DNA of 64,000 nt from positions 1-64,000 of the forward strand of contig JAHOYZ010000021.1 in the NCBI GenBank assembly GCA_019038695.1. The letters run 5' to 3'. The notes below the pieces were generated by a model. That model saw only the letters and a list, made by a program, of their open reading frames with translations. It ran no database searches and was not told the origin of the DNA. The position numbers and the translations under genes were made by a program. Below, in pieces: positions 22,113 through 32,330 of this stretch. This DNA comes from Candidatus Zixiibacteriota bacterium (GTDB taxonomy: Bacteria > Zixibacteria > MSB-5A5 > GN15 > FEB-12). Positions within the stretch are counted from its first letter, which is position 1; each line of letters opens with the position of its first letter.

Positions 22113-23546
22113 CTACCTGATCAAGAGCATCTTCTTCGACGATACATGCTCGCCCATCGTGATACGGTAGAAATACACTCCCGTCCCGATCGCTTTGCCG
22201 CGGCTATCGGTTCCATCCCATTCCTTCTCGTAAGTGTTTGCTGACTGCACTTCGTCCACCAAGGTGGCAACGCGTTGGCCGAGGAGGTTGTAAATGTCGA
22301 TTACAACTCTGCTCTTAGTCGTTACGTTGTACTTGATCGTGGTGGCCGGGTTGAAGGGGTTGGGGTAGTTCTGGGCCAACTCGAAACCTGAAGGTACTTG
22401 TCCAAAGGGACTGTCATCAACTCCCGTTGCCGTTTTATTGAGAAGGATAGAGACATTGTCGGATTCTCCATCAGCCACGGCCAGGTCATTGTCGCCATCG
22501 CCGTCCAGGTCAGCCGCAAAGACTGACAAGGGTAAGTTTCCCGTCCCATAATCGACCGCCGCCTGGTATGTTCCGTCGCCATTGTTTATCAGGATATAGA
22601 CATTGTTGGAATTCTGATTAGCAACCGCCAGGTCGATGTAAGTATCCTCGTCAAGGTTAGCCGCAAAGACTGAATAGGGATAATTCCCCGCCGCATAATT
22701 GACCGCAGCCTGGTAAGTTCCGGTATTATCAATATTCATCAGGATAGAGACGTTGCCGGAACTATAATTAGCCACCGCCAGGTCGCTGTCACCGTCCTCG
22801 TCAAGGTCGGCCACAAAGACTGAATATGGTCCGTCTCCCGTCGCGTAATTGACCGCAGCCTGGTATGTTCCGGTATTATCAATATTCATCAGGATGGAGA
22901 CATTGTCGGAATTATAATTAGTTACCACGAGGTCAATGTCATCGTCGCCGTCAAGGTTAGCCGCAAAGACTGATATGAGTCCATCTCCTGCGCCGTAATT
23001 GTCCGCCGCCTGGTATGTCCCGTTGCCATTGTTTTTAAGGATGGAGACGTTGTTGGAAGTGGTATTAGCTGTTACCAGGTCTTTGTACCCATTGCCGTCA
23101 AGGTCAGCCGCAAAGACGGAAGAGGGTTCGTCTCCTACACCGTAATTGACCGCCGCCTGGTATGTTCCGGTATTATCAATATTCATCAGGATGGAGACAT
23201 TGTCGGAAAAATAATTAGCCACCGCCAAGTCGATGTCACCGTCCTCGTCAAGGTCAGCCGCAAAGACGGAGCTGGGGCCGTCTCCCGTACCGTAATTGAC
23301 CGCCGCCTGGTATGTTCCGTCGCCATTGTTTATCAGGATAGAGACATTGTCGGAAATGGTATTAACTATTGCCAGGTCGTTGTACCCATCGCCGTCAAGG
23401 TCAGCTGCAAAGACTGATCTGGGTTCGTCTCCCGCCGCGTAATTGACCGCCGGGGCAAACATATTCTGAGCGAAGACATTGGCTGCTAGAGAGACTGTTA
23501 GCAGAGCAGCCAATATTGGAATCCTGAAAAGTGAACAAGTTTTCAT
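22113..23546 (-). CDS. Secreted FG-GAP/VCBS repeat protein with type IX-like sorting domain
   Basis: Protein of 477 residues. The ATG at 23546 is chosen for its 'ggagg' site and signal peptide ('ILAALLTVSLAANVFAQ'). Seven tandem units of 49-50 residues follow, each of the form 'AAVNYGTGDGPSSVFAADLD' with a calcium loop D-x-D-x-D-G and '..DLAVAN...DNVSIL.N', i.e. FG-GAP/VCBS blades that should close into a seven-bladed beta-propeller. The last 90 residues hold 'NYPNPFNPATTIKYNV', 'VVIDIYNLLGQRVATL' and 'GVYFYRITMGEHVSSKKMLL', the FlgD-like C-terminal domain used by the type IX secretion system. Probably a cell-surface or released protein; no enzymatic domain is seen. Confidence 0.88.
   Translation of the reverse strand: MKTCSLFRIPILAALLTVSLAANVFAQNMFAPAVNYAAGDEPRSVFAADLDGDGYNDLAIVNTISDNVSILINNGDGTYQAAVNYGTGDGPSSVFAADLDEDGDIDLAVANYFSDNVSILMNIDNTGTYQAAVNYGVGDEPSSVFAADLDGNGYKDLVTANTTSNNVSILKNNGNGTYQAADNYGAGDGLISVFAANLDGDDDIDLVVTNYNSDNVSILMNIDNTGTYQAAVNYATGDGPYSVFVADLDEDGDSDLAVANYSSGNVSILMNIDNTGTYQAAVNYAAGNYPYSVFAANLDEDTYIDLAVANQNSNNVYILINNGDGTYQAAVDYGTGNLPLSVFAADLDGDGDNDLAVADGESDNVSILLNKTATGVDDSPFGQVPSGFELAQNYPNPFNPATTIKYNVTTKSRVVIDIYNLLGQRVATLVDEVQSANTYEKEWDGTDSRGKAIGTGVYFYRITMGEHVSSKKMLLIR
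22440..23470 (-). repeat. Coding tandem repeat, seven units of about 147-150 bp
   Basis: Blocks such as 'attgaccgc(c/a)gcctggta' and 'ttccggtattatcaatattc' recur at regular distance through the gene at 22113. DNA identity between units is high, indicating recent duplication within the gene. Confidence 0.85.
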
Positions 23547-23615
23547 ACAATCCTCCATACGTAAGAAATGATGATATGGGACTATCATAATAGTTCCGAT
23601 CCAGTCGGTCAACTG

Positions 23616-24301: not shown

Positions 24302-24367
24302 TTATGGATCGATGGGATACCATTGATGGCTGGGAAACGAGCCTGGAGTGAGGAGTCAGAGGGCGAT

Positions 24368-27088
24368 ATGACAGTTATGGATTTACAAAAATGGGGAATA
24401 CCGTCGCGGATCATCGACATCTGGAATGACCGCCAGGGGTCACGTCTGCTACCGGTGCAGAGCAAAGCAGTACGGAAGGGGTTGCTTGGCATGGAGGGGC
24501 AGGACCTCAGTCGAGTGTCGCTGCGAACGTTGGTCTCAGCGCCCACCGGATCGGGCAAATCATTTTGTGCTGAGATGGCCATGATACAGGCGCTGACATC
24601 ACGACAAAAGACAGTGCTGCTGTATCCGTTGAAATCACTTGCGGAGCAGAAGTACCGTGTCTTGGAGGAGACTTACGCTCCGCTGGGAATAAAGTGCATC
24701 ATAGCTACCGGCGATCACCCGGAGAACGATGCTCTCTTGGCCCGTGGTGAGTACCAGGTCGCAGTTGTTATCTATGAGAAGTTCGATTTGTTGCTGACGG
24801 CCAATCTTGATGCGCTGGGGGGGATTGGGCTGATAGTGATTGATGAGATTCAGACGATTGCCGAGCCAAAGCGAGGGGCGGTACTTGAACGGTTACTGAC
24901 CAAAGTTATCTCCTCTGTCTATACTCCTTCGCTGGTGGGGCTGTCGGCTGTCATTGGTGACTCGGACACAGCCGCAGGTCGGTTGGCTGACTGGTTGGGA
25001 GCCACGCTGATAGAGGAGACAACACGTCCGGTTGATCTTCTGCGCGGGGTGGCCGCCGAAGGATCTTTCCGGTACCGGTCCTACAATGACGGTGTAGACG
25101 GGAGCGAACCGTTTGAAACACCGGAAGCGGGAGATGAGCCTTTCGAGTCTTTCGCCAACCAATTGAGAAAAGAGGCGGTTCCGACATTGGTGTTTCTGAA
25201 GTCGCGCCGCGAGACGATTGATTGTGCTTTCAAACTGGCCGCATCAGTCGCCTGGGCACCGGCCGAACAGGCAATTGAGGAACTCAAGGCCGAGGAGCCG
25301 TCCTTCTTGATCCGCACACTCACCCAAACGCTCAGCCGTGGAGTGGGGTTTCATAGCGCCGATTTGTCATCAAGGCAGCGTACAATTGTAGAGAATGCCT
25401 TTACGCGACATGATATTATGGTGTTATTCTCAACTACTACTTTAGCTATGGGGGTTGATCTCCCGGCCGAACGAGTTTTGCTTGAGACGGTCAAATACAC
25501 CGATGGAACCTATGCCGGCAGTCCTTTACTGGTGCCGATCAGTCTGGCGGAGTTTGACAATATTACCGGTCGAGCTGGACGTCTGGGGCTTTCGGGTGAT
25601 TTCCCCGGTCGGGCGATTGTCCTGGCGGTCTCGGAGTTTGACCGCGATGTCCTCTGGCGCAATTATATCATGCCGGAAACATCGGCGCCGATCAGGTCTG
25701 CTCTGGGAAGTCTGCCGCTTGAGGATTGGGTGTTAAACATGGCAGTCGCCGGGGTCGCCTGCGCCAGAACGGATCTGGATTCATTGTTTGCGAATACCTT
25801 GTATGCGGCCGTTGGGCCGGTTGATGATTCCGTGAGTATTGTTGGTGGACTGTCCCCTGATTTCGATACGGCATTGCAGTGCCTGCAAGACAGGGGATTG
25901 GTACGACTGGAGCTGGATGACACTATTATTGTTACCCCGCTTGGACGGACGGTAGCACTGATCGGGCTTTCGGTCAGGCAGGCAGGTTTTTTCCAACAAA
26001 AGCTCAACGATCACAGGCCCGAATCTCTCGAGGCATGGCTTGCGTTGGCTTTGAGTGCGCCGGATTGGGAACCGCCGGCGGGGATGCTGACGCGGTTGGA
26101 ACAGGTGGGCAACGGTCCAGCGAAACTGTTGTGGCAGCACTATGATCATTTGGTTGACGCAGCGGCGATGTTGATTGGTCGACCATCGAACAGCGAGCCG
26201 CTTGGCAGATCTGTCGCGGTACGCCTGAAGGGGCTGCTGATGCTCTGCGAATGGATTAGCATGACACCGGTGAAACGTCTCGAGGAGCGTTTTCAAGCTC
26301 ATCTCGGTCAGATAATGAATCTTGGGGATCAGGCGGCCCACCTGGTGATGGCGCTGAGACGTCTTGATGATGTCGGGAATCGGCAGGCAGGGTCAAATTG
26401 TGAACTTGAGGGCCTCGTATTCGGTCTTCGTTTTGGATTGGTGGCTGATCTGCGGGAGTTGTACGGGCACTTCGGCAGTAGTCTGGTCAGGTCTGATTTT
26501 GTTGCTCTGAAGGAGGCCGGTCTCGTCAGTTTGAGAGACGTTTTTGACTGTTCTTCCGAGAGACTCAGGGAAATTATCGATAATGCTCGTAAGTTTATGT
26601 CATTTATGGAGAAAGTGGAAATACTAAAACAGGAGGTAGACATGCAGTCCAATGTTGGAACCGAAGAACGAGTGACGGCGCGTGGGCCGGTGCTGGTGGC
26701 ACAACCCGAATCGATTATTGTCGATGGCAGTTACGAACGGGAACGCTATCTGGTCAGGATTGATGGCTTTCCGGTTCGGCTGACGGGGAAGTCGTTTAAG
26801 TACTTTACCAAGCTGGCCTGGGGCCGGTTGTGCAGCGATGGGGGTTGGATTTATAAGGAAGACATTGAGATGGGATTCAACCAGGCGCGTTACCTGTACA
26901 GGATGAAGAATGAAATTGCGGCCGGGTTGGGAATGAGTTGGCCCGTCTTTGAGAACAATCGTCTCGGTTATTACCGGTTGCAGATCGATCCAACCAGGAT
27001 AGATATTAACGTGGAGAATCTCCGAGACCATCCGGACTACGAACTGCGCGATATGATCTCAGGAAGGGAATCGGGACCGGTGAACTGA
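24368..27088 (+). CDS. Ski2-like superfamily 2 DNA/RNA helicase
   Basis: Protein of about 906 residues. Motif I 'APTGSGKS' with Lys64, motif II 'DEIQ' (Asp159), 'LYPLKSLAEQKYR' (Ia), 'LSAVIGD' (III), 'FLKSRRETI' (IV), 'FSTTTLAMGVDLPAERV' (V) and 'DNITGRAGRLG' (VI) identify an SF2 helicase of the Ski2/Hel308 type, found in repair and RNA processing. A helical C-terminal region and a winged-helix-like tail ('VRLTGKSFKYFTKLAWGRLC', from about residue 805) follow; the tail resembles a DNA-binding effector domain. ATG at 24368 is preferred for 'agaggg'; ATG at 24326 is possible. It stands downstream of the operator-type promoter at 23769. Confidence 0.85.
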   Translation: MTVMDLQKWGIPSRIIDIWNDRQGSRLLPVQSKAVRKGLLGMEGQDLSRVSLRTLVSAPTGSGKSFCAEMAMIQALTSRQKTVLLYPLKSLAEQKYRVLEETYAPLGIKCIIATGDHPENDALLARGEYQVAVVIYEKFDLLLTANLDALGGIGLIVIDEIQTIAEPKRGAVLERLLTKVISSVYTPSLVGLSAVIGDSDTAAGRLADWLGATLIEETTRPVDLLRGVAAEGSFRYRSYNDGVDGSEPFETPEAGDEPFESFANQLRKEAVPTLVFLKSRRETIDCAFKLAASVAWAPAEQAIEELKAEEPSFLIRTLTQTLSRGVGFHSADLSSRQRTIVENAFTRHDIMVLFSTTTLAMGVDLPAERVLLETVKYTDGTYAGSPLLVPISLAEFDNITGRAGRLGLSGDFPGRAIVLAVSEFDRDVLWRNYIMPETSAPIRSALGSLPLEDWVLNMAVAGVACARTDLDSLFANTLYAAVGPVDDSVSIVGGLSPDFDTALQCLQDRGLVRLELDDTIIVTPLGRTVALIGLSVRQAGFFQQKLNDHRPESLEAWLALALSAPDWEPPAGMLTRLEQVGNGPAKLLWQHYDHLVDAAAMLIGRPSNSEPLGRSVAVRLKGLLMLCEWISMTPVKRLEERFQAHLGQIMNLGDQAAHLVMALRRLDDVGNRQAGSNCELEGLVFGLRFGLVADLRELYGHFGSSLVRSDFVALKEAGLVSLRDVFDCSSERLREIIDNARKFMSFMEKVEILKQEVDMQSNVGTEERVTARGPVLVAQPESIIVDGSYERERYLVRIDGFPVRLTGKSFKYFTKLAWGRLCSDGGWIYKEDIEMGFNQARYLYRMKNEIAAGLGMSWPVFENNRLGYYRLQIDPTRIDINVENLRDHPDYELRDMISGRESGPVN

Positions 27089-27169: not shown

Positions 27170-27196
27170 TTCTCAAGTGAAAGGAGATCATGTGCA

Positions 27197-29713
27197 GTGA
27201 GTAGTACTGACAGGAAAACACCGACCATTGTACCGCCCAAAGGCAGTCTTCCAATTCTGCCTTCGGATCAGGAGGATCGATTCCCGGTTCTGCCGCTTCA
27301 GACTGGCGTTCTGTTTCCCGGAACGATGATGACGTTGCAGATTGGGCGACTTGACAACCTGGAGCTGATTAGGTATTGCCTGGATGGCAAACGCGAGTTT
27401 GTGGCTTCATATTCATCCTCGCATCCCGGTGACCAGAATGGTGGATCAATTCACCAGGTTGGTGTGACTGCAACTGTTCGTGACAGTCGGGAAGGACCTG
27501 CCGATTCGCTGGTTGTTACGCTGGAGGGAATGCAGCGGGTTGTAATCACTAAGATTGTCAGTCAGAAACCTTATCTGATGGCGACGGTGAGTTATCTCCA
27601 GTGGCCCAAGTCAGTAAATCGAAAATTGAAGACCAAAGTTGATGCCGTGATCTCGATTGCCAAAGAGATTACTGAGCTTGATCCCGGCTATTCGTCCGAA
27701 GTACTGAATGTTCTGCGGATGAATCAGAATGACCCGTCCTTACTTGCAGATAAGGCTGCTTCTCTGTTTCATTTCCCTCTGTCCAGCAAGCAGAAGCTAC
27801 TGGATACGGCTGACCTCAAAAAGCGGTACGAGAACCTCCTGTCTAACCTGAATGCCGAATTGAACCGGGTAGCGACGTCTCGTAGTATTGATGAGAATGT
27901 CAAGTCCACAATTGCCGAAGAACAAAAGCGCTCTTACCTCAAACAGCAACTCCATGAGATTCGCCGTCAGCTGGGCGAGGATTTGTCTGAGGAGCGAGAG
28001 GCGGTGCGGTTTCATAAGATATTGAAGGACACCCCCAAGCTGCCGTCGGAAGTGGTGGCTCGGGCGACGATTGAAATCGACCGTCTATCGCAGTTGTCTC
28101 CTGCCTCGGCTGAGTATGGTGATGTCAAGAGCTACCTTGATTGGATTCTTGCCATGCCATGGGGGAAATGTACTCCCGAGGATTACGAGATCGCCGACGT
28201 ATCGCGGATACTGGAGAAAGACTATTACGGTCCCGCGAACATTCGCGAACAGATATTGGAACGTCTTTCAGTGCGCAAGTTGGCTGGTGGCGCTAATGTC
28301 ATTCCGACTCTCTGCCTTGTGGGTGCTCCCGGTACGGGTAAGGCATCATTGGCCAAAGCGATCGCCCACGCGCTGGGCAAAGAATTCGTTCGAATCTCGG
28401 TGGGTGGGATATCGGACGTTGCTGAGGTCAAGGGGTCGCCCCGGACATTTATGGGTGCTATGCCGGGCAAGATTGTTCGCACTCTGCGCGATGCGGGTAC
28501 CTGTGACCCGGTGGTGCTGATTGAGGACATTGACTATTTCAATATGGACAACGACTCCTCTGTCAATACGGCCCTGCTTGAGGTTGTAGACAATCGATGG
28601 AACTCACGTTTCCTGGACAACTATCTTGGGGTTCATTTCGATTTCAGCCGTATTCTGTTCATCTGCTCTGTGCGGTCATTCGAGGAGATACCGGAACAGT
28701 TCATACCGCGATTTGAGATTCTGGAGTTACCCGGCTATATTGAACGCGAGAAAATTGCTATTTCGAAAAAATTTCTCATTCCGAGACTACTCAAGGCTCA
28801 TGGTTTGCGGAAATCGGAATTATCTTTCACGGACAAAATTTTGACCAGGATCATTTCGAATTATACTATGGAAGCCGGTCTACTTGGCTTCTCGCAGCAG
28901 ATTGAGAAGATTTGCCGTAAGGTCACTCTGGCTAAGTCAGCCAAGCCAAGAAAATCATGGAGCATCAACGAACGAAATATTATCTCCTACCTCGGTCCGC
29001 CAATCTATATCCCCGAGCGAGCTGTGAGTACGCCTGAAATTGGCACAGCCGCTGGTTTGGCGTGGACAGGAGCGGGTGGTGATTTGATGTTTATTGAGGG
29101 ACTGAAGATGAAGGGGGAGGGGCAGATCATTACTACTGGTTCGCTGGGTGAAGTGATGCGAGAGTCTATCCTGGCGGCCCACTCATATGTCCGTTCCAAA
29201 TCCGATGTTCTTGGTATCGACTCCAACGACTTCAGTCAGTTTGATATTCATATCCACTTTCCGTCCGGGGCTATTCCCAAGGACGGACCTTCGGCGGGCG
29301 TCACAGTCTGTTTGGTGATTGCTTCAGTGATGGCTGAACGGCCGATTCGGAACGATGTGGCTGTTACCGGAGAAGTGACGTTGCGGGGCAGAGTGCTTCA
29401 GGTTGGTGGAATCAAGGAAAAAATCTCGGCTGCCTATCGAGCCGGTATAAGCCATGTGGCTATGCCAAAGGAAAACGAAAAAGATATTAAAGACTTGCCG
29501 AAGGAGATCCTTCGCAAGCTAAAATTCACATTCATCGAGCGAGTTGACGAGTTGTTTGAGGTTTGCTTGCTCGACTTTACTCCGTCATCGTATACGCTTG
29601 AAAAGATCTTTGCTGAAGAGATCGAGAAGGCGAAAAAGCGCAAATCCCGTTCAGTCCGTAAGTCGACGGTCAAAAAATCCGCAGCGCGCCGGAACACTGG
29701 CAAGAAGAAGTAA
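27197..29713 (+). CDS. Lon-family protease with degenerate AAA+ ATPase motifs
   Basis: Protein of 838 residues with full Lon layout: N-terminal substrate domain ('FPVLPLQTGVLFPGTMMTL', about residues 30-48), coiled coil ('YLKQQLHEIRRQLGED'), AAA+ module, and C-terminal protease with Ser699 in 'PKDGPSAG' and Lys740 in 'VGGIKEK'. The AAA+ module departs from family consensus: Walker A 'GAPGTGKA' has Ala383 for the usual Thr, Walker B reads 'VVLIEDID' (Glu443-Asp444 where Asp-Glu is usual), sensor-1 Asn is replaced ('FICSVRS') and sensor-2 'EAGVR' reads 'EAGLL' (Leu563). It ends in a Lys/Arg/Ser-rich tail. GTG start with 'aaggag' 10 bases upstream. Probably a paralogue of a normal Lon elsewhere; ATP hydrolysis is likely weak or absent. 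Confidence 0.9.
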   Translation: MSSTDRKTPTIVPPKGSLPILPSDQEDRFPVLPLQTGVLFPGTMMTLQIGRLDNLELIRYCLDGKREFVASYSSSHPGDQNGGSIHQVGVTATVRDSREGPADSLVVTLEGMQRVVITKIVSQKPYLMATVSYLQWPKSVNRKLKTKVDAVISIAKEITELDPGYSSEVLNVLRMNQNDPSLLADKAASLFHFPLSSKQKLLDTADLKKRYENLLSNLNAELNRVATSRSIDENVKSTIAEEQKRSYLKQQLHEIRRQLGEDLSEEREAVRFHKILKDTPKLPSEVVARATIEIDRLSQLSPASAEYGDVKSYLDWILAMPWGKCTPEDYEIADVSRILEKDYYGPANIREQILERLSVRKLAGGANVIPTLCLVGAPGTGKASLAKAIAHALGKEFVRISVGGISDVAEVKGSPRTFMGAMPGKIVRTLRDAGTCDPVVLIEDIDYFNMDNDSSVNTALLEVVDNRWNSRFLDNYLGVHFDFSRILFICSVRSFEEIPEQFIPRFEILELPGYIEREKIAISKKFLIPRLLKAHGLRKSELSFTDKILTRIISNYTMEAGLLGFSQQIEKICRKVTLAKSAKPRKSWSINERNIISYLGPPIYIPERAVSTPEIGTAAGLAWTGAGGDLMFIEGLKMKGEGQIITTGSLGEVMRESILAAHSYVRSKSDVLGIDSNDFSQFDIHIHFPSGAIPKDGPSAGVTVCLVIASVMAERPIRNDVAVTGEVTLRGRVLQVGGIKEKISAAYRAGISHVAMPKENEKDIKDLPKEILRKLKFTFIERVDELFEVCLLDFTPSSYTLEKIFAEEIEKAKKRKSRSVRKSTVKKSAARRNTGKKK

Positions 29714-29736: not shown

Positions 29737-29766
29737 TTGACACTGTGCGGTGACAATTGCTATACT
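29737..29766 (+). promoter_or_regulatory. Candidate promoter of the BACON/dockerin gene
   Basis: Consensus TTGACA, 18-base spacer, TATACT, about 220 bases before the ATG at 29988. Confidence 0.45.
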
Positions 29767-29987
29767 ACCTCTAAGGGTAAATGGTCTTCTGTTGAATTGA
29801 CCGTAAACTTCTTGAACCTCGCATTCTAAATGAGTCGAATACAAAATGACAGCGGTCGTCTGGTTCTCCTGGTCAATGACGTCTTCTCCCTGTTTTCGAG
29901 TGGGCGATCGTGTGTTCGAGACTGTGAAGGGTGCTGGTCAATCCTTGTGAGCGAAATACAGTTTGTAACAAGCATGGAGGCATACAA

Positions 29988-32330
29988 ATGAAGAAGTGGC
30001 GTGTTGTGTTGGGGTTGATTCTGGTCATCTCATTGACTACGTCAGCCATGGCTCAGTTTGAACAGGATCCCAATGATGCCGGGGCGGCGGATACGGTAGA
30101 AATGGTATTTTCTGTTATTCCCGACTATACTACTGGTCAGTATAACGTGCAGATGGATCTCTGGGTGTTTAATGATGCGAATTTGCTCATAGGTGCAACA
30201 TCAGGTTTTACCTGGGATAATGCGAATCTTCAAATGGACAGCGCTACTGCATCTGATCTGACGGATAATGCTTTTGATATTGGACCGTTCTTTTATGAAG
30301 ACGCCGACATTGACCTGACCAATAGTAATCAGCGCTTTCTGTTTGGCGGAGCACTCCTGTTCGCTTCCGGAGTGGCCTCAGCGCCAGAGAGCCAGATTTG
30401 GGCGAGCTACTATTTCACTCTGTCTGATTGGGATATCTGCGACTCTATTGCTCTGGACTCGTTGACCTACTCACCTGGATCGGACTTTGGACTTGTTGGT
30501 CAGGGCAATCATATCTATCAGCCCTATTGGAAGGGACGGATTGTAGCATATGATACGGCCTGTATTCCTTCGGCGAACCTTGTGCTATCGACGGATTTGC
30601 TGAGTTTTGATGCAGTGGAGGGGGCGTCAAGCCCGGATCCGCAGTCCTTTACGGTTAGCTCCGACGGTGTACCGCTGTTCATCAATATTTCTGAAACCAT
30701 TCCCTGGTTGGCTATAAGTCCCAGTTCGGGCTGGACCACGCAAGTTATCAGCGTTTTGCCGAACACGATCGGAATGTCGACGGGTACCTATTTGGATTCG
30801 ATTCGCGTTGAATCGGCTTTGGGAGGTAATTCTCCTCAGTATTTGAAGGTGGAGCTCGTAATCGAATCACCACCACCTGAGATCGGTGCTACTCCAACGG
30901 TTTTCTATTTCAATGCGGTTGCCGGAGAGGATGATCCCGATCCCAAGATTCTTACGATTACTAACGAGGGTGGCCCCACGCTCAACTGGACTGTCTCCAA
31001 TAGTGAAAGCTGGCTTAGCCTGACACCGGGAGCTGGAACTGATGCTGGCGATGTGACTGTCTCTGTCAACATTACTGGTCTCTCATACGATGATTATGTG
31101 GACACAATTGTTATCACCGACCCCATGGCATCCAATGATCCTGTTAAGGTACCGGTGTTTCTGTCGGTCGGATCAGACTTACCCATCATTGAAGTGGATT
31201 CGGCGTTTAACTATATAGTGGTACCAACGGCCAAGATGGCGGTTGATCCTCGTACAATTCTAATCAGGAATGCTGGCGCTGGTACTATGAACTTCTGGTT
31301 GGAAGAAAGTTCTGTTCGTCTGTTCACCGTTACTCCTAGTTCGGGTACGGCTTCACAGGAGGTTGAGGTCGGTTTCAAACTCACTTCCGGTAGTGCGGGT
31401 GATATCTATGACGATACACTCTGGGTGTATTCCAATGAGGCCATTAATTCTCCGTTCCCGGTAGTGTTCCAGTTTCATTTGCTGGACAACCCCGCGTACA
31501 TGTATGTGACCAGCGATACGGTCTATCTGGAGCTATATGAATGCACAATGGGGGCGGGTAATGTCCCACCGATATCAATGTTTACGGTGGACAATGTTGG
31601 CGGTGAAGATCCTATGGGCTTCGATCTCACCTGGGAATCTGATCTATTTTCGGTTACAGCACTTTTCCCTAATGCCCCTACGGGTGTTATGATTCAGGCC
31701 AACTATCTCAATCTGCCGGTGGGGACCTATCTGGACACGATCGTGATCTATGCCCAAACCTCGCTGATCCAGTGGGACACGGTGATCGTACGTTATGATG
31801 TGATAGAGCCCACCGAGACACCCGAGATATGGCTGACGGGATACGATTTTGTTATTCCTGCGAAGGAGAACTCGGGACCTGTCCCGCCGATAGGAATGGG
31901 TGTTGATAATGTACACGGTGGTTGTATGGACTGGTATGTCATTGAAAACGTTCCCTGGATGTATCCAACGGATACGGCCGGTACGGTTCCATCGAGTTTC
32001 TCTATAGGGTCTAACGCCGATGGATTTGTGTTTGGTGAGTATCCTGACTCCTTCTTTGTTCATTCGGATGAAGCGGCCAATAGCCCACAACGGGTTGATG
32101 TACTGTTCCGGGTCTGGCGATTCCACGGGGACATGGATTACAGTTGTGAAATCAATATCCTGGACTTAACTTATATGGTAAGTTATTTGTTCCTGGGTGG
32201 TCCGGGACCGATTCCGACCTACTTCGTCGGCAATCTGAATTGCGATCACACAGTTGATATTCTTGATCTGACCTACTTCGTCAGCTATCTCTTCAGCGGT
32301 GGACCAATGCCGTGCGGTAATCCGTATTAG
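29988..32330 (+). CDS. Secreted BACON-like repeat protein with C-terminal dockerin-like modules
   Basis: Protein of 780 residues. The ATG at 29988 has 'ggagg' seven bases upstream and gives a signal peptide ('VVLGLILVISLTTSAMAQF'). After an N-terminal cohesin-like beta domain (about 20-190), several copies of the BACON type follow ('SETIPWLAISPSSGWT', 'SNSESWLSLTPGAGTDAGDV', 'FTVTPSSGTASQEVEV', 'ENVPWMYPTDTAGTVPSS'), each an immunoglobulin-like unit of about 90-110 residues. The end holds 'GDMDYSCEINILDLTYMVSY' and 'GNLNCDHTVDILDLTYFVSY' with 'LF-GGP', the same dockerin-like tail as in the 6874 protein. Probably a surface or extracellular adhesive protein; the ligand is unknown. Confidence 0.82.
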   Translation: MKKWRVVLGLILVISLTTSAMAQFEQDPNDAGAADTVEMVFSVIPDYTTGQYNVQMDLWVFNDANLLIGATSGFTWDNANLQMDSATASDLTDNAFDIGPFFYEDADIDLTNSNQRFLFGGALLFASGVASAPESQIWASYYFTLSDWDICDSIALDSLTYSPGSDFGLVGQGNHIYQPYWKGRIVAYDTACIPSANLVLSTDLLSFDAVEGASSPDPQSFTVSSDGVPLFINISETIPWLAISPSSGWTTQVISVLPNTIGMSTGTYLDSIRVESALGGNSPQYLKVELVIESPPPEIGATPTVFYFNAVAGEDDPDPKILTITNEGGPTLNWTVSNSESWLSLTPGAGTDAGDVTVSVNITGLSYDDYVDTIVITDPMASNDPVKVPVFLSVGSDLPIIEVDSAFNYIVVPTAKMAVDPRTILIRNAGAGTMNFWLEESSVRLFTVTPSSGTASQEVEVGFKLTSGSAGDIYDDTLWVYSNEAINSPFPVVFQFHLLDNPAYMYVTSDTVYLELYECTMGAGNVPPISMFTVDNVGGEDPMGFDLTWESDLFSVTALFPNAPTGVMIQANYLNLPVGTYLDTIVIYAQTSLIQWDTVIVRYDVIEPTETPEIWLTGYDFVIPAKENSGPVPPIGMGVDNVHGGCMDWYVIENVPWMYPTDTAGTVPSSFSIGSNADGFVFGEYPDSFFVHSDEAANSPQRVDVLFRVWRFHGDMDYSCEINILDLTYMVSYLFLGGPGPIPTYFVGNLNCDHTVDILDLTYFVSYLFSGGPMPCGNPY

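Follow-up and report, generated by a model that had tools for sequence, protein, structure and literature searches.

The gene lon3 occupies positions 27197..29713 of the forward strand of the window, the 64,000-nucleotide stretch of DNA that was analysed, and its translation, NCBIfam and Pfam matches and AlphaFold model describe a full-length LonA-type protease of 838 amino acids with a degenerate AAA+ ATPase. The frame is uninterrupted from a GTG start at 27197 to the stop at 29711-29713, and direct reading of the sequence places a ribosome-binding site, AAAGGAG (27180..27186, +), 10 nt 5' of the GTG; the opposite strand contains numerous stops in the corresponding frame. The product is identified as endopeptidase La by NCBIfam TIGR00763 with 696.7 bits (cutoff 608), and the LON N-domain (PF02190), AAA (PF00004), Lon lid (PF22667) and Lon_C (PF05362) are all found above cutoff in the one chain. 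The architecture of Lon3 is LonA-type, with the LON substrate-binding N-terminal domain spanning residues 30-219 (27284..27853, +; PF02190, 124.6 bits). The complete domain set, the 838-residue frame and the ribosome-binding site bear out a sequence-only reading that had described the gene as full length and free of stops.

Upstream, lon3 adjoins a gene on the same strand (24323..27088, +) for a Hel308/Ski2-like SF2 helicase, assigned by profile matches and locus comparison, which has recognisable helicase motifs and scores far below the cutoff of archaeal Hel308 models. Further upstream, on the reverse strand (22113-23612), lies a gene whose product has FG-GAP repeats and a C-terminal sorting domain for type IX secretion. 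Downstream of lon3 lies a forward-strand gene (29931-32330) whose 799-residue product has a signal-like N-terminus (ATG 29988) and a dockerin-like C-terminus and contains a BACON domain. An operon of lon3 with this gene was considered, but its product looks secreted and it has a strong promoter-like site of its own just upstream (TTGACA-18-TATACT, 29737-29766), and it was therefore treated as unrelated. An association of lon3 with a defence system was also rejected, since the PADLOC matches were to generic Lon, AAA and helicase only.

The motifs of Lon3 were examined in an alignment of 85 Lon3 sequences, 58 from the window's order and 27 from deeper families, and 88 canonical Lons. Four sites in the AAA+ core are altered, each at the place given for it in the sequence-only reading. 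In the P-loop GAPGTGKA (residues 376-383; 28322..28345, +), compared across the 58 order-level Lon3 and the 88 canonical Lons, Lys382 is retained and Thr is replaced by Ala383; the Walker B position reads Glu443-Asp444 (28523..28528, +) in place of the canonical Asp-Glu; the sensor-1 Asn is replaced by Arg493 (28673..28675, +) and the sensor-2 Arg by Leu563 (28883..28885, +). We tested whether such changes are common in canonical Lons, which by the sequence-only reading would have refuted it, and they are not, as the Walker B Asp-Glu, the sensor-1 Asn and the sensor-2 Arg are present in 88/88 and the Walker A Thr in 87/88. The protease site carries the catalytic Ser699 within PKDGPSAG (29291..29293, +), which is invariant in every aligned row, and the catalytic Lys742 within GGIKEK (29420..29422, +), with a gap of 42 residues between them, the separation of the catalytic Ser and Lys in Lon (PMC9569914). 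Of the dyad proposed earlier Ser699 stands, whereas its partner had been placed at Lys740, which is only the first Lys of GGIKEK and is replaced by Arg, Val, Ile or Asn among Lon3 relatives.

Within the window's order, Ala383 (58/58), Asp444 (58/58) and Glu443 (57/58) recur in a P-loop of the form GxxGTGKA, sensor 1 is mostly Arg or Lys, with Ser, Thr or Gln in others, and sensor 2 is mostly Leu. The Lon3 of the deeper families mostly retain Thr383, vary at both sensors and have ED, DD, EQ, EP, EG, EE or DN at Walker B. None of the 85 Lon3 has an intact Walker B Asp-Glu pair, and the sensor-1 Asn is missing from all order-level members and from 24/27 of the deeper ones. Read from the alignment, the motor losses of the deeper families are partial and varied, and partly degenerate forms persist in neighbouring families. 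Lys742 is present in every Lon3 that covers its region, including 39/39 covered members of the window's own family, in which one ORF of 40 ends before this residue. When changes were mapped on the tree, each motor position had changed 2-6 times and Ser699 and Lys742 not once (0 each). The P-loop glycines Gly376, Gly379 and Gly381 are invariant in Lon3 and Lys382 is kept in 84/85, which makes nucleotide binding plausible.

These features bear on whether Lon3 could still be driven by ATP through an altered active site, for example with Asp444 and Asp446 replacing the Walker B pair. Within the order both the P-loop Lys and the carboxylates resembling Walker B are conserved, 40/40 own-family Lon3 have Phe, Tyr or Trp at the pore-loop-1 position, and omega of the AAA domain is low (0.006-0.12 in pairs with measurable dS, although many dS values are near saturation and these are a rough guide). 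In the order the Walker B carboxylates have been exchanged and not lost, and own-family members retain both the arginine finger and the aromatic residue of pore loop 1, so that Lon3 could conceivably still hydrolyse ATP slowly or contribute to the mechanics of the ring. However, four positions that are near-constant in canonical Lons have changed together, and the conserved RGDP segment that follows Walker B is replaced. Moreover, position 444, which is Asp throughout the order, is Asp, Gly, Gln, Glu, Asn or Pro in the deeper families, so that Gly, Pro, Gln or Asn can occupy the place of the catalytic Glu and classical hydrolysis could not be a common requirement of Lon3. An ATP-driven Lon3 is, in our judgement, quite unlikely.

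Lon3 was then compared with the known Lon types. It resembles LonA (E. coli, B. subtilis, M. taiwanensis) in domain order, in the 60 residues from the Walker A Lys382 to the Walker B Asp position (Glu443), in the 42-residue Ser-Lys gap, in the PKDGPSAG motif and in fold, and differs from it in lacking the ATP-hydrolysis residues, in a constraint that has moved to the protease domain and in a long basic C-terminal tail. LonC (Meiothermus taiwanensis LonC, MEROPS S16.007; PMC3391209) likewise combines a Ser-Lys protease with an AAA-like module whose Walker B, sensor 1 and sensor 2 are degenerate, although the loss of ATPase activity and the degradation of unfolded proteins, which are measured properties of LonC, are predicted ones of Lon3. 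LonC has a B-type site, with Asp before the catalytic Ser, where A-type sites have Pro (PMC9569914), and in its protease domain an insertion, CX3GLX(G/E), separates helix alpha3 from strand beta9 (PMC3391209). Lon3, in contrast, has a LonA N-domain, an A-type site with Pro698 directly before Ser699 and LonA spacing, and its residues 742-757 (KISAAYRAGISHVAMP) keep that spacing with no extra segment after Lys742, so that LonC was ruled out. Because Lon3 groups with LonA, its motor loss would be separate from, and convergent with, that of LonC. LonB was also rejected, as there is no membrane-anchoring insert and the gap between Walker A and Walker B is just 60 residues. An A-type protease site within a Lon variant subfamily is also found in LonBA (B. 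subtilis 'LonB'; PMC9569914), but LonBA is presumed to be membrane-bound and its AAA+ spacing is 82 residues against 60 in Lon3.

The AlphaFold model of Lon3, built from a 46-sequence alignment, has a complete Lon fold (mean pLDDT 83.5, pTM 0.56). Its AAA-protease core matches LonA chains with a target TM of up to 0.91, with the placement of the N-domain uncertain. The stretch right before Ser699 is of low confidence, and an active or inactive form is unreadable from the model.

Among 132 genomes of the phylum Zixibacteria, lon3 was called on its match score, and the loci that were read were then judged on their motifs; almost every member of the window's order (f1-f4) carries the gene, as do ten more families of the class (f5, f7-f13, f18 and f19). 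The nearest named relatives, both from Candidatus Zixiibacteriota genomes, are 82% (L056) and 70% (L034) identical. In a tree of Lons from which the motif columns had been removed, all 56 sampled Lon3 form one clade (SH-aLRT 100), with the canonical paralogs elsewhere, and the branching within this clade tracks the family labels. This match with host taxonomy looks like vertical inheritance. Degeneracy of the motor was searched for outside Zixibacteria and not found among the sampled Lons: every Lon that was read, from 11 genomes of other groups and from 7 genomes in the group around G132, has canonical motor motifs, and a contig scan with peptide patterns specific to the query returned no degenerate Lon outside the phylum. 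The search for a second, canonical lon that had been suggested earlier gave two LonA genes (C30 and C22) in the host genome. The same genome encodes a fourth Lon-type protease (L004; G000 C22, 4-2052), a LonC/YcbZ-type protein of 682 amino acids with Asp before the catalytic Ser, as in B-type sites, and a LonC-like Cys-containing insertion after the catalytic Lys. Separately, a genome of family f5 (G062) has an additional canonical-looking Lon (L191), which stands at the end of a very long branch and away from the remaining Zixibacteria Lons.

The distribution of selection along the chain differs between Lon3 and its paralogs. At matched overall divergence, identity within Lon3 is.77 in the protease domain,.63 in the AAA domain and.43 in the N-domain, its fastest-evolving part, whereas the C30-type canonical Zixibacteria Lon has.74 in AAA,.59 in the protease and.58 in the N-domain. 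The constraint is inverted in Lon3, with the protease above the AAA+ domain, the reverse of the canonical paralogs. Both canonical Zixibacteria Lon types (L002 and L003) have lower conservation in the protease domain than in AAA. Of 20 residues that are invariant in Lon3 but seldom seen in canonical Lons, 15 lie in the protease domain, and together with the inverted constraint this suggests to us that selection acts on a peptidase whose specificity is its own. The dN/dS check of lon3 gave omega well below 1, indicating purifying selection, and with clade-wide inheritance and an unchanged dyad it agrees with the earlier view that the gene is maintained. A pseudogene is ruled out by this selection and by the conserved frame. 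Could lon3 instead be a decaying duplicate heading for loss? Its AAA motifs are degenerate, and family f15 and most of f16 have one Lon only, canonical where read; against this, 14 families of the class retain lon3, its frame is open in most genomes, it is under purifying selection and its protease domain is more conserved than that of the canonical paralogs. Decay is very improbable, and omega well below 1 and the invariant dyad already go most of the way to refuting it.

We also considered that Lon3 might be a pseudo-ATPase subunit of mixed hexamers with canonical LonA, where it would lend its arginine finger to the ATP site of a neighbour and add a further protease site and N-domain. Canonical LonA co-occurs with it in the host genome and in the Lon3 genomes looked at, the complete LonA architecture is retained, and Arg505 at the arginine-finger position (28709..28711, +) is kept in 57/58 members of the order though the site in cis looks dead. 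On the other hand, this residue is kept in just 13/27 of the deeper Lon3, in which the protease is still intact; three f12-type Lon3 (L172, L173 and L101) start near residue 240-260 of the window protein and are without the entire N-domain, yet have an intact protease; and it is the N-domain that evolves fastest. On balance mixed hexamers seem unlikely. If they exist, Zixibacteria would tune Lon by subunit composition, and rings that include subunits with a dead motor and a live protease would be a kind of regulation new to the Lon family.

A different line of evidence concerns the C-terminal tail and the helicase. The last 25 residues of Lon3 (29636..29710, +) are basic, with a median net charge of +12.5 in the own family and +11 in the rest of the order and the deeper families, compared with +8 and +3 in canonical Zixibacteria Lons and -2 in non-Zixibacteria Lons. 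The tail of the L002-type canonical Zixibacteria Lon is moderately basic. The helicase gene precedes lon3 in more than 40 loci, in the window's order and in f5, f9 and f10, and the basic tail and the frequent adjacency hint at a link of Lon3 to nucleic acid. Lon3, motorless or not, might accordingly act with the helicase in DNA or RNA repair or surveillance, with the tail, basic across the whole clade, holding it at nucleic acid, a role that would be compatible with a motorless Lon3. However, lon3 is without an adjoining helicase in seven deeper families (f7, f8, f11-f13, f18 and f19), with helicase relatives elsewhere in deeper-family genomes; the two genes are separated or differently oriented in some own-family genomes; and the tail of the C30-type canonical Lon, at +8, is also moderately basic. 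We regard the nucleic-acid role as doubtful, and the earlier proposal of a partnership with the helicase is weakly supported, as the pair is adjacent in many loci but apart in these families and genomes.

Taken together, the sequences indicate that Lon3 combines degenerate motor motifs and an intact dyad with clade-wide inheritance, purifying selection and an inverted domain constraint. A retained P-loop next to missing hydrolysis residues is most simply read as a LonA peptidase without a motor, perhaps under nucleotide gating, and we consider it probable that Lon3 is a LonA peptidase that acts on unfolded or disordered proteins, either independently of ATP or gated by nucleotide. The earlier suggestion of an ATP-independent or ATP-binding-only Lon is in this respect well supported, by the clade-wide ATPase degeneracy, the constant dyad, the P-loop glycines and Lys, and purifying selection. 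Lon3 would be a third, specialised LonA in which the ATP-driven motor was abandoned and the peptidase retained. It most likely builds the usual Lon barrel, in which the P-loop may hold nucleotide as an assembly or gating ligand with no hydrolysis, and unfolded or disordered polypeptides would diffuse through the pore to the Ser699-Lys742 sites, while unfolding at the expense of ATP would fall to the cell's two canonical Lons. We infer the absence of ATPase activity, the active protease, the oligomer and the type of substrate from sequence. There are precedents for these steps: the MtaLonC hexamer binds six nucleotides, has no ATPase activity and degrades unfolded proteins (PMC3391209), and E. 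coli Lon with AMPPNP-Mg has an activated peptidase but cleaves casein slowly and non-processively (PMC7800598). Since the LonA protease is activated by nucleotide-Mg and Ala383 removes a Mg ligand, the protease of Lon3 could also be less active, and not constitutively open.

In the part of the literature covered, a search for Lon with a degenerate or missing ATPase returned only the LonC work and no LonA-type case, and a search for Lon in Zixibacteria returned nothing. Lon is the textbook protease with motor and peptidase in one chain. Lon3 would represent a LonA lineage without the motor, in which the peptidase is more strongly constrained than that of the canonical paralogs, and its graded forms provide a natural series on what AAA+ modules do beyond hydrolysis, in assembly, gating and allosteric activation of the protease. 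If Lon3 is indeed motorless, an ATP-independent Lon would have arisen not only in the LonC line but also from LonA.
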